A stretch of 64,000 nt of DNA. It comes from Candidatus Rokuibacteriota bacterium. Its GTDB lineage: Bacteria > Methylomirabilota > Methylomirabilia > Rokubacteriales > CSP1-6. The position numbers were made by a program, and so were the translations under genes. Of this stretch, positions 11,748 to 15,312 are shown in pieces. Under the pieces are notes generated by a model, which saw nothing but the letters and a program-made list of their open reading frames with translations, searched no databases and was not told the origin of the DNA. The stretch is from the NCBI GenBank assembly GCA_003220435.1, contig QHSL01000083.1, positions 1-64,000 on the forward strand, given 5' to 3'. The first letter of the stretch is position 1, and the number at the start of each line of letters is the position of its first letter.

Positions 11748-12041
11748 ATGAGCGCCCAGCGTCACTACGGCTTCGAGCGCCGACGCCGGGCCGACATCCA
11801 GAAGGCGAAGCAGGAGGCGAAGCGCCAGCGCAAGACCGAGCGCGCTGAATCCGGGTCGACCGGCCCCGAGATCGGCGAGGCGCAGGACACGAGTGCGCCC
11901 GCTGGCTTGTGGGAGTGGTTCTCGCCGAGTCGGGGCCGGACCGTCACCTCCCCGATCGGGACGCGCCCCAATCCGGACCCGCCGGACGACTGGATCTTGT
12001 TGACGGACGTCGAGCCCGAGTCCGACGGCCGGCCGCAGTAG
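11748..12041 (+). CDS. Small conserved-type protein with basic N-terminal helix
   Basis: A 97-residue protein. Residues 8-35 form a strongly basic helix (FERRRRADIQKAKQEAKRQR), followed by an acidic, Pro-rich tail ending DWILLTDVEPESDG. Short proteins of the type 'FxxRRRxxxQKxKQEAKRxRK' are common as unnamed genes in GC-rich environmental bacteria, which supports reality; function unknown. The stop is directly adjacent to that of the CDGSH gene on the other strand. Confidence 0.55.
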   Translation: MSAQRHYGFERRRRADIQKAKQEAKRQRKTERAESGSTGPEIGEAQDTSAPAGLWEWFSPSRGRTVTSPIGTRPNPDPPDDWILLTDVEPESDGRPQ

Positions 12042-12251
12042 CTACTTCGGCTTCGCCGCCTCGGACGCCTGGAAGCCGATCTTGTTGTGCGTCCCATCGC
12101 ACATCGGCTTCGAGCTGGACCCGCCGCACCGGCAGAGCGCGATCCTGGGCTGGCCGGCGGTGTCGATGCGGGCCCCGGTCGGATCGTAGACTTCGCACTC
12201 GCCTTCGACCAGGAGCGGACCGTTCGGGCGCGCGGTGATCTTGACGCTCAT
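12042..12251 (-). CDS. CDGSH iron-sulfur domain protein
   Basis: A 69-residue protein with the complete CDGSH ligand set: Cys40, Cys42, Cys51 and His55 in CRCGGSSSKPMCDGTH, which binds a [2Fe-2S] cluster with 3Cys-1His ligation. The preceding GPLLVEGE strand element is normal for the bacterial short forms. ATG 12251 is chosen over the more upstream in-frame start because AAGGAGG lies 10 nt before it. CDGSH proteins act in redox or Fe-S handling; here the neighbour across the divergent promoter is a radical SAM selenoprotein, which also needs Fe-S clusters. Confidence 0.9.
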   Translation of the reverse strand: MSVKITARPNGPLLVEGECEVYDPTGARIDTAGQPRIALCRCGGSSSKPMCDGTHNKIGFQASEAAKPK

Positions 12252-12306
12252 CTGGATGAGTCCTCCTTGGAGGTAGAGCAGCGCCAACAAGATACCACTC
12301 CGGAGG

Positions 12307-12312
12307 TACACT
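12307..12312 (+). promoter_or_regulatory. TACACT -10-like element of the radical SAM selenoprotein gene
   Basis: TACACT is separated from GTG 12319 by 6 nt with no ribosome-binding sequence, so transcription would start at or next to the first base of the start codon (leaderless mRNA). On the other strand TATCTT (about 12290-12295) could serve the CDGSH gene. Confidence 0.5.
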
Positions 12313-12318
12313 GACGCC

Positions 12319-13746
12319 GTGAAGGAGCCCGGCGCGATCCTCCTCGTCGCCTGCTACGAGCTCGGCCACCAGCCTCTCACGGTCGCGTGGCCGGCCGCGT
12401 TCCTCGAGCGCGCGGGCTACTCGCCGTCGGTGGTGGACGTGTCGGTCGAGCCGCTCGACGCCGAGCACGTGACGCGCGCGAAGCTGGTGGCGATCTCGGT
12501 GCCGATGCACACGGCGCTTCGCCTCGGGGTCGTCGTCGCCGAGCGCGTGCGGGCGATCAATCCGGCCTGCCACATCGCCTTCTACGGTCTCTACGCCACG
12601 CTCAACGCCGACCATCTGCTGGCCGGCGTCGCCGATACGGTGATGAGCGGCGAGACCGAATCCGCACTGGTGAAGCTGGTCCAGCGGCTCGAGGCCGGGG
12701 GGGGCGCTCAGGGGAACGGCGCGCCCGTCGCGCCCACGCTGGAGAAGCTGCAGTTCCCGGTGCCCAGCCGCGCGACGCTTCCCCCTCTGAAGAAATACGC
12801 GCAGCTCGAGCGTGACGGCGGCGTCGAGCTCGCGGGCTACGTCGAGGCGAGCCGCGGCTGCAAGTACCTGTGTCGCCATTGCCCGATCCCGCCGGTCTAC
12901 GGCGGCCGCTTCTTCGTCGTGCCCGTCGAGGTGCTGCTCGCCGACGTCCAACAGCAGGTGGCGGCAGGGGCGACCCACATCACGTTCGGCGATCCCGATT
13001 TCCTGAACGGGCCCGGCCACGCCCTGGTCGTCACTCGGACGGTCCACGAGGAGTTCCCACGGCTCACGTTCGATTTCACGGCGAGGGTCGAGCACCTGCT
13101 GCGCCACCGGGAGCGGTTGCCGGAGTTGGCGCGGCAGGGATGCGCGTTCATCGTGACCGCCGCGGAGTCACTGAGTGACACCGTCCTGGAACACCTCGAC
13201 AAGGGACACACCCGCGCCGACATCGAGACCGCGCTCGGCGCCGTGCGCTCGGCCGGCATCGCGCTGCGTCCGACGTGGGTGCCCTTCACGCCGTGGACGA
13301 CCTTCGACGACTACCGGGAGCTGCTGGAGTTCGTCGATTCTCACGACCTCGTCGACGCCATCGATCCCGTGCAGTACTCGATCCGCCTCCTGGTCCCACC
13401 GGGCTCGCTCCTGCTGGACGGTCCGGCGCTGCGTCCCTTCCTCGGCCCGCTGGTGGAGGATCAGTTCCACTACCGATGGACGCACCCGGACCCACGCATG
13501 GAGGCGCTGCACGCGGACGTGTCGGCTGCGGTCGCTGCCGCCGCGACCAGGCGCGAGGACGCCGCGGTCACGTTCCACCGCGTGCGTGAGCTGTCCGATC
13601 GCGCCGCCGGGGCCGAGCCCCGGCCGTTCGCTACGGCGGCGAGCCGAACGCGCCCGCCGCGGCTCACCGAGCCGTGGTTCTGCTGAGCTGAGCCCACCGA
13701 GGGCCAGTTGGCCCTGAGCCGGATCTCGGGTACAGTATCCATCTAA
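12319..13746 (+). CDS. Radical SAM selenoprotein with CUAEP tail (TGA 13684-13686 read as selenocysteine)
   Basis: A 475-residue protein when the in-frame TGA is decoded as Sec456. Residues 1-125 resemble a cobalamin-binding-type Rossmann domain (ILLVACYELGHQPLTVAWP, GETESALVKLV) without a clear DxHxxG motif. The radical SAM core follows with the CX3CX2C cluster motif at Cys181, Cys185 and Cys188 (ASRGCKYLCRHC). The sequence before the TGA is TEPWFC; after it the same frame reads AEPTEGQLALSRISGTVSI and ends at TAA 13744-13746, giving the Cys-Sec-Ala-Glu-Pro tail that defines the CUAEP/CCAEP-tail radical SAM (seleno)protein family. A SECIS-like hairpin follows. Substrate unknown. It lies just before NifU-like and ATP-grasp genes. 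Confidence 0.85.
13684..13686 (+). other. TGA recoded as selenocysteine
   Basis: The codon lies between TGC (Cys) and GCT GAG CCC (Ala-Glu-Pro), giving the family tail C-U-A-E-P. The frame stays open for 19 more codons to TAA. In Cys-containing relatives the same position is cysteine (CCAEP). Decoding requires selA, selB, selC and selD elsewhere in the genome; none are in this window. Confidence 0.85.
13700..13715 (+). promoter_or_regulatory. Bacterial SECIS-like hairpin
   Basis: AGGGCC and GGCCCT form a perfect 6-bp stem around the loop AGTT (13706-13709). The loop starts 19 nt after the TGA and has G at its second position. Published bacterial SECIS rules ask for an apical loop about 16-37 nt from the UGA, with a G among the first two loop bases and a short upper stem; this hairpin meets them. 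Confidence 0.7.
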
Positions 13747-13757
13747 GAGGTGCTGCC

Positions 13758-14039
13758 ATGAGCGCTGAGCTCAAGACGAAAGTTCAAGAGCTGATCGACA
13801 CGATGATCAATCCCGCGGTGGCCGGTCACGGCGGCTTCGTCGAGCTGATCGACGTGCAGGACAATCGCGTCTACCTCCAGATGGGCGGCGGTTGTCAGGG
13901 CTGCGGCGCCGCGGATGTCACGCTGAAGTCGGGGATCGAGCGGTTGATCAGGGAAGAGCTCCCCGAGGTCATCGAAGTTCTGGACACGACGGATCACGCC
14001 GCGGGCAGCAACCCGTACTACACGCCGGGCAAAGCCTAG
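13758..14039 (+). CDS. NifU C-terminal domain (Nfu-type) iron-sulfur carrier protein
   Basis: A 93-residue single-domain protein: INPAVAGHGGFVELIDVQDNRVYLQMGGGCQGCGAADVTL has the NifU-C fold signature with the CxxC pair Cys46 and Cys49 that holds a cluster at the dimer interface. It ends with a short NPYYTPGKA tail. Such proteins donate [4Fe-4S] clusters to apo-enzymes. It begins 11 nt after the true end of the radical SAM selenoprotein, with ribosome-binding sequence AAGAGG, so a role in supplying that enzyme's cluster is a reasonable inference. Confidence 0.9.
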   Translation: MSAELKTKVQELIDTMINPAVAGHGGFVELIDVQDNRVYLQMGGGCQGCGAADVTLKSGIERLIREELPEVIEVLDTTDHAAGSNPYYTPGKA

Positions 14040-14064: not shown

Positions 14065-15312
14065 GTGACCTCAGTGGCTTCGGCGAGCCGGTTGCTGCTC
14101 CTCCTGCCCACCACGACGTACCGCACCGAGGCCTTCATCGACGCCGCGACGCGCATGGGCGTCGAGCTCGTGTGCGCCTCGGAGCGGCCGAGCACGCTGC
14201 AGACGCACGCGCCCGACAGCCTCGTCACCCTGGACTTCAACGATCCCCTCGCCAGCGCCGAGGCGATCGCCCAGCTCGCCCGGCGCCGGCCGATCAACGC
14301 CGTCGTCGCGGTCGACGACCTGACCACGGTCGTGGCCGCCGCCATCAGCGCGCGGCTCGGACTCAAGACGAACTCCTTGCCCGCCGTCATCGCCGCGCGC
14401 GACAAGCACGCGATGCGCCGGTGCCTGGCCGATGCGTCGGTACCGGTGCCTCGCTTCCGCCTGGTCGACCTGACCGACGATCCGCGAGCCGTCGCCGAGC
14501 AGATGGAATACCCGTGCATCCTCAAGCCGCGCATGCTCTCGGCGAGCCGGGGGGTGATCCGTGCGAACGACGCGCGAGAGTTCGTCGCGGCCGTCCGCCG
14601 CATCGCGACGATCCTGGCGGGCGTCGACGCCGCGTTTCCCGACGAGGCGCGCCGGACCTTGCTCGTCGAAGCCTTCGTTCCCGGACGCGAGGTCGCGCTC
14701 GAGGGCTTGCTGGTGGGCGGAACGCTCCACGTCCTGGCCCTCTTCGACAAGCCGGACCCGCTCGACGGACCGTTCTTCGAGGAGACCATCTACGTCACGC
14801 CGACCCGGCTGCCCGAGGTCACCCAGGCCCGCATCGCGGCGGTGACCCGCGACGCCTGCTCGGCCCTCGGACTCACCGAGGGGCCGATCCACGCCGAGCT
14901 GCGGGTCAATTCGCTAGGCCCGTGGATCCTCGAGGTCGCGGCTCGCTCGATCGGCGGGCTCTGCTCGCAGACGCTCCGCTTCGGCACCGGCCTGACCCTC
15001 GAGGAGCTGATCCTCTGCCACGCCCTCGGTCGCCCCCTGGAGTCCCTGGAGCGCGAGTGGCGGCCCGCAGGCGTGATGATGATCCCGATTCCGCGAGCAG
15101 GTCGGTTGCGCGCGGTTCGGGGACGCGAAGAGGCTACCGCGGTCGCCGGCATCGAGGAGGTCGCCGTCACCATGCACCCCGGCCAGGAGGTGGTGCCGCT
15201 CCCCGAGGGGTGGCAGTACCTCGGGTTCATCTTCGCCCGCGCTGACACGCCCGCCGCGGTCGAGCGGGCGCTGCGCGAGGCGCACGCGTGCTTGCACTTC
15301 GACATTGAGTAA
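14065..15312 (+). CDS. ATP-grasp superfamily ligase
   Basis: A 415-residue protein with an N-terminal Rossmann-like preATP-grasp part (RLLLLLPTTTYRTEAFIDAA) and the ATP-grasp fold: RDKHAMRRCLADASVPVPRFRLVD, PCILKPRMLSASRGVIRAND, LLVEAFVPGREVALEGLLVGG and HAELRVNSLGPWILEVAARSIGGLCS, the last carrying the metal-binding Glu/Asn region. The C-terminal domain resembles those of carboxylate-amine ligases of the BL00235/CarB-like group. It would join a carboxylate to an amine or thiol with ATP; substrate unknown. It is in the same unit as the NifU-like and radical SAM genes, which raises the possibility of a small biosynthetic pathway. The start is GTG, with no good ribosome-binding site. Confidence 0.85.
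   Translation: MTSVASASRLLLLLPTTTYRTEAFIDAATRMGVELVCASERPSTLQTHAPDSLVTLDFNDPLASAEAIAQLARRRPINAVVAVDDLTTVVAAAISARLGLKTNSLPAVIAARDKHAMRRCLADASVPVPRFRLVDLTDDPRAVAEQMEYPCILKPRMLSASRGVIRANDAREFVAAVRRIATILAGVDAAFPDEARRTLLVEAFVPGREVALEGLLVGGTLHVLALFDKPDPLDGPFFEETIYVTPTRLPEVTQARIAAVTRDACSALGLTEGPIHAELRVNSLGPWILEVAARSIGGLCSQTLRFGTGLTLEELILCHALGRPLESLEREWRPAGVMMIPIPRAGRLRAVRGREEATAVAGIEEVAVTMHPGQEVVPLPEGWQYLGFIFARADTPAAVERALREAHACLHFDIE

Follow-up and report, generated by a model that had tools for sequence, protein, structure and literature searches.

The gene at positions 12319-13746 of the window, i.e. of the whole 64,000-nucleotide stretch of Candidatus Rokuibacteriota DNA analyzed here, contains a TGA within an otherwise open frame. 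This raises the question of whether the triplet terminates a radical SAM protein or is read as selenocysteine (Sec) and, in the latter case, what the resulting Cys-Sec pair may do for the enzyme. Comparison across the family makes decoding of this TGA as Sec near certain (probability approximately 0.97), while the function that we propose for the pair is considerably more tentative.

A radical SAM frame with an internal TGA

The plus strand frame opens with GTG at 12319, ends with TAA at 13744-13746 and contains a sole in-frame TGA at 13684-13686. The protein sequence around this position is ...PPRLTEPWFC-U-AEPTEGQLALSRISGTVSI. The sequence-only reading had described a conventional frame ending ...TEPWFC-TGA that read-through extends by U-A-E-P and 16 further codons, which is exact. 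The features of the gene are as follows.

12319-13746, plus strand: gene for a 475-aa radical SAM selenoprotein (family NF040546), predicted Sec at residue 456
13684-13686, plus strand: in-frame TGA, almost certainly read as selenocysteine (Cys455-Sec456); relatives have only TGA, TGC or TGT here
13687-13743, plus strand: coding extension AEPTEGQLALSRISGTVSI, lost if the TGA is a stop; its codons for A, E, P, T and Q are conserved

A likely ribosome site (agaggtg) for the downstream gene directly follows the TAA at 13746, with the ATG at 13758. The read-through end thus abuts the next gene closely; termination at the TGA would instead leave a gap of 71 nt.

The protein matched the NCBIfam profile NF040546 ('CUAEP/CCAEP-tail radical SAM (seleno)protein') with 688.5 bits over profile positions 1-467 of 468 (hmmscan, cut-off 500), and the C[C/U]AEP tail that this family requires is present as CUAEP at residues 455-459. 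Membership is clear, and CCAEP-tail homologues have Cys at the Sec position. NCBI named this family after the very tail seen here, and the gene is an ordinary representative of it, sharing the full-length match as well as the tail and differing in no tested feature. The runner-up profile, NF040542 (ArsL), reached 326.8 bits over the whole core and remained below its cut-off of 450, while Pfam gave a radical SAM match and, at the margin, a B12-binding one. TIGR04167 (rSAM_SeCys) and NF045646 (TrsS), likewise radical SAM proteins with predicted Sec but listed as different families in a table of prokaryotic selenoproteins (PMC13188914), were absent from the hmmscan profile matches of the protein. 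The loss of the tail in automated annotation that had been predicted from the sequence is seen in Thermomicrobium roseum, where the RefSeq CDS TRD_RS12835 (NC_011961.1; L180:6950-8386) ends at the TGA and bears the CUAEP/CCAEP-tail name with the tail itself missing.

The protein consists of a Rossmann-like N-terminal domain (approximately residues 1-125), a radical SAM core with the cluster motif C181-x3-C185-x2-C188 and a C-terminal tail (approximately residues 447-470). Residues invariant across the family include the three cluster cysteines, an N-terminal Y-x-L-G, an MHTA located in the N-terminal domain and the tail motif W-x-C-[C/U]-x-E-P; no cysteines other than those of the core motif and of the tail pair are invariant. 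The AlphaFold model was confident overall (mean pLDDT 93.5) and fairly so in the tail, with block means of 81-90 for residues 431-460 and of 72 followed by 37 beyond them. Its best structural matches were AprD4 (0.66), OxsB (0.65) and the methylase MgmA (0.56; TM-scores by query length), all radical SAM folds that include a B12-type domain; they are similar in fold but only 15-18% identical in sequence, and a search by sequence for a close homologue of solved structure returned distant radical SAM chains only. A possible B12-binding fold at the N terminus is suggested by a score marginally above the PF02310 cut-off (33.3 bits vs. 32.1), while the fold of the model matches OxsB and MgmA but also AprD4. 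The cobalamin-binding motif DxHxxG was sought by eye and seen neither in the window sequence nor in the consensus of the family, and cobalamin dependence is not claimed.

Selenocysteine or stop

The source genome (5.4 Mb, 95.5% complete) encodes the complete set of selenocysteine genes looked for. selA and selB lie side by side on contig C138, which also carries the tRNA-Sec gene selC (69.8 bits; identified by ARAGORN as tRNA-SeC with anticodon TCA), and selD is present at L018:1501-2445 (C100:66727-67671). The latter contains one in-frame TGA of its own, in ...ACAGUASK..., and is itself a selenoprotein candidate.

Within the phylum searched, a majority of genomes (63 of 95) encode a protein above the NF040546 cut-off, and the gene also occurs in Chloroflexi, in Nitrospirota (as the Cys form) and in other groups. 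Among the phylum matches listed that reach the tail, each had exactly one in-frame TGA. Across many phyla, the distinct tails carried TGA (65), TGC (16) or TGT (11) and no other codon at this position; these relatives were found by sequence patterns, one of which spans the tail and could miss tails other than C[CU]AEP, while five others lie elsewhere. With the tail columns left out of the tree, the Sec/Cys label required five changes compared with a mean of about 15 after shuffling, a distribution that fits a switch that happened several times and was mostly inherited, and the genomes compared for selB are therefore not independent. With this limit, a selB match above the cut-off was present in 21 of the 23 TGA-form genomes and in 5 of the 27 Cys-form genomes (Fisher p = 1.8e-7). 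Two Nitrospirota genomes (L090 and L098) combine a full selB with a Cys-type member and are Sec-using hosts of the Cys form. Directly after the TGA, pairwise comparison of the AEPT codons yielded 2358 synonymous vs. 206 nonsynonymous differences, as expected of codons under strong purifying selection.

A hairpin follows the TGA within the extension.

13700-13715, plus strand: bSECIS-type hairpin of 6 bp whose AGTT loop (13706-13709) is separated from the TGA by 19 nt

Bacterial SECIS elements have their loop 16-37 nt after the UGA and a G at one of the first two loop positions (PMC13188914). The hairpin, with the stem arms AGGGCC (13700-13705) and GGCCCT (13710-13715), agrees with these rules in its 19-nt spacing, AGUU loop and 6 bp, and the stem length, loop and spacing proposed in the sequence-only reading were confirmed. 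In RNAfold, its stability in this single gene proved ordinary (z = -1.1, with 25 of 200 shuffles as good), and 15% of synonymous recodings of the gene reach a stem of at least 6 bp. By itself the window hairpin is weak evidence, and an Rfam scan of 13600-13850 gave no convincing match.

Across the family, conservation of the hairpin goes far beyond chance and, as a comparative result, appears decisive for the Sec reading. It is kept at the exact site in 65 of 65 distinct TGA relatives with 5-8 bp and a closing C before the loop A-G, in either of two registers that differ in loop size (4 or 5). The mean stem of these relatives was 6.5 bp, while synonymous recoding gave a mean of 2.5 and a maximum of 3.2 in 300 trials. 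Among 29 Cys relatives, 27 had 0-1 bp, one had 4 bp and one 7 bp. When the 16 members with a 5-base loop were aligned, pairing was 100% with changes on both sides at five of the six pairs, and none of 500 shuffles reached the covariation score. A Luteitalea member (L134:8001-9421) has a TGC codon, an intact 7-bp hairpin and selB in its genome, along with an upstream indel that breaks the frame in this draft assembly; it looks like a recent switch from Sec to Cys.

Were the TGA instead a true stop, the extension would be a relic or the product of leaky readthrough without Sec. The unexceptional window hairpin is compatible with termination, as is the lack of a full selB in two genomes with the TGA form (L110 and L132, both draft assemblies), and the Sec reading is drawn from sequence. 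Strong selection on the AEPT codons (2358 vs. 206), the covarying hairpin, the presence of the Sec machinery and the Cys codon found in mostly Sec-less genomes all argue against it; a leaky stop or an artefact is rejected, and we assign termination only a trace of probability. Decoding as Sec in a CUAEP tail, the central claim made from the sequence, is supported by family membership, machinery, Cys relatives and hairpin covariation alike.

Kinship with ArsL and the gene neighbourhood

The closest characterized relative is ArsL, for which radical transfer of a 3-amino-3-carboxypropyl (ACP) group to arsenic has been predicted. ArsL is required to make hydroxyarsinothricin from arsenite, the ACP transfer being a prediction (PMC8552651). 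The ArsL-type proteins of four plasmids aligned with the CUAEP family over the core with 32-38% identity and share its architecture, its cluster motif and a C-terminal pair of adjacent cysteines. ArsL ends with R-CC-LKC at the place where the CUAEP family ends with W[FY]C-[CU]-AEP, and the CUAEP proteins carry extra residues before the tail. Sec is absent from the ArsL sequences compared here. The window protein missed the NF040542 cut-off (326.8 of 450) and lacks the RCCLKC terminus, and further motifs differ between ArsL and the CUAEP family (SVPLFD vs. SVPMHTA; YCS vs. HCP), which suggests a different substrate. No ArsL above cut-off was detected in 369 genomes of the class to which locus L135 belongs, where the 20 best matches of the ArsL search made into loci were CCAEP-tail members, all with Cys.

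Neighbours were surveyed by clustering the open frames around approximately 100 CUAEP loci. Those of the window gene that recur are listed here.

12042-12311, minus strand: divergently oriented gene for a CDGSH iron-sulfur domain protein, conserved in the Rokubacteria loci
13758-14039, plus strand: NifU C-terminal domain protein, NfuA-like Fe-S carrier; its cluster comprises 29 loci, nearly all adjacent
14065-15312, plus strand: ATP-grasp ligase with LAL_C2 (L-amino-acid-ligase type), adjacent in 54 loci

The ATP-grasp gene adjoins the CUAEP gene in 54 of the approximately 100 loci, on either strand and side, and this linkage extends over Rokubacteria, Nitrospirota, Chloroflexi, Acidobacteriota, Ignavibacteriota, Myxococcota and Proteobacteria. 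An ATP-grasp gene is also found beside ArsL in three of the four plasmid loci, although its product is only 23-28% identical to the CUAEP-associated one and not specifically orthologous. The Fe-S and iron upkeep genes vary by lineage and include the NifU C-terminal domain gene (29 loci), CDGSH (18, nearly all Rokubacteria), YggX (17; Chloroflexi, Gammaproteobacteria and others) and ErpA (6), while DUF169 recurs in Nitrospirota loci. Two families without Pfam matches were also observed: a 97-aa protein (window 11748-12041, plus strand; no NCBIfam match either) with a conserved WEWFSPSRGRTV that lies upstream in 19 Rokubacteria loci, and a 143-aa family at L090:4816-5247 (minus strand) and 11 further Nitrospirota loci, always approximately 1.4-2.3 kb downstream of the Cys-type gene on the opposite strand.

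Arsenic genes accompany ArsL but as a rule not CUAEP genes. There was no match to arsB, arsQ, arsN or aquaporin beside any of the approximately 100 CUAEP loci, and no arsM, arsQ or arsR context beside the window gene. Only two of these loci, both with a Sec-type CUAEP gene, have an arsM-like and an arsR-like gene at a distance of up to 8 kb (L110:5327-6483 and L128:15006-16989).

A possible role for the Cys-Sec pair

We tentatively favour, at somewhat less than even odds, an ArsL-like enzyme whose Cys-Sec (or Cys-Cys) pair would hold a soft element or activated thiol for radical alkylation, with the ATP-grasp ligating the product; this is the reading that draws on most of the observations. SAM would be cleaved at the [4Fe-4S] cluster to give a carbon radical, probably 3-amino-3-carboxypropyl, and this radical would attack a soft element or a thiol-like centre bound to the tail pair. 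The neighbouring ATP-grasp ligase would then join the product amino acid to another amino acid, and the Fe-S upkeep proteins encoded nearby would keep the oxygen-sensitive cluster alive. Arsenic is possible as the bound element, though the loci do not point to it. A more specific form, in which a selenoenzyme forms a carbon-element bond to arsenic, selenium or another soft element held by Cys-Sec and feeds the ATP-grasp ligase to yield an organoelement peptide, strikes us as unlikely.

Two other roles for an inserted Sec were weighed against radical alkylation. The tail might act as a reducing pair that restores the substrate or an active-site disulfide to the reduced state after every turnover, with the radical chemistry directed at an ordinary organic substrate. 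The tail of mammalian thioredoxin reductase is such a Cys-Sec reducing pair, and the vicinal arrangement here, swapped for Cys-Cys in many lineages, is in keeping with it. According to PMC9312934, the majority of known selenoproteins are considered redox enzymes. Yet ArsL combines a Cys-Cys tail with a metalloid substrate, and no reductase or thioredoxin gene was recognized within the annotated part of the recurring neighbour clusters; the ArsL comparison makes element binding by the tail pair at least as likely as the redox role that the sequence-only reading assumed, and a reducing tail is possible but doubtful. In the remaining reading the pair would ligate an auxiliary Fe-S cluster, perhaps consumed as a sulfur source for sulfur or selenium insertion and restored by the NfuA-like neighbour, much as NfuA restores the cluster of lipoyl synthase. 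NifU domain, ErpA, YggX and CDGSH genes do recur beside the gene in different phyla, but they differ among lineages as expected of general upkeep, and with the core three and the tail pair as the only invariant cysteines such a cluster would have few ligands, which makes this role quite improbable. All three functions, radical alkylation included, keep the Sec reading.

The family and its tail were known already, being catalogued in NCBIfam. What the present analysis adds is the covariation, the correlation of Sec or Cys with selB, the linkage to the ATP-grasp gene and the comparison with ArsL. No paper on CUAEP, CCAEP or NF040546 was found in a literature search that covered few subscription papers and whose scope ended short of two papers by Haft et al. 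on new selenoproteins, and neither NF040546 nor 'CUAEP' occurs in a 2026 review of prokaryotic selenoproteins (PMC13188914). The covarying hairpin firms up the Sec reading for a family in which some members are still truncated at the TGA by annotation. Being widespread, the gene would be part of a widespread pathway, and its ATP-grasp partner together with its kinship to ArsL puts a testable pathway in the place of 'function unknown'. If the organoelement proposal were true, an organoelement peptide would be made in common soil and groundwater bacteria.
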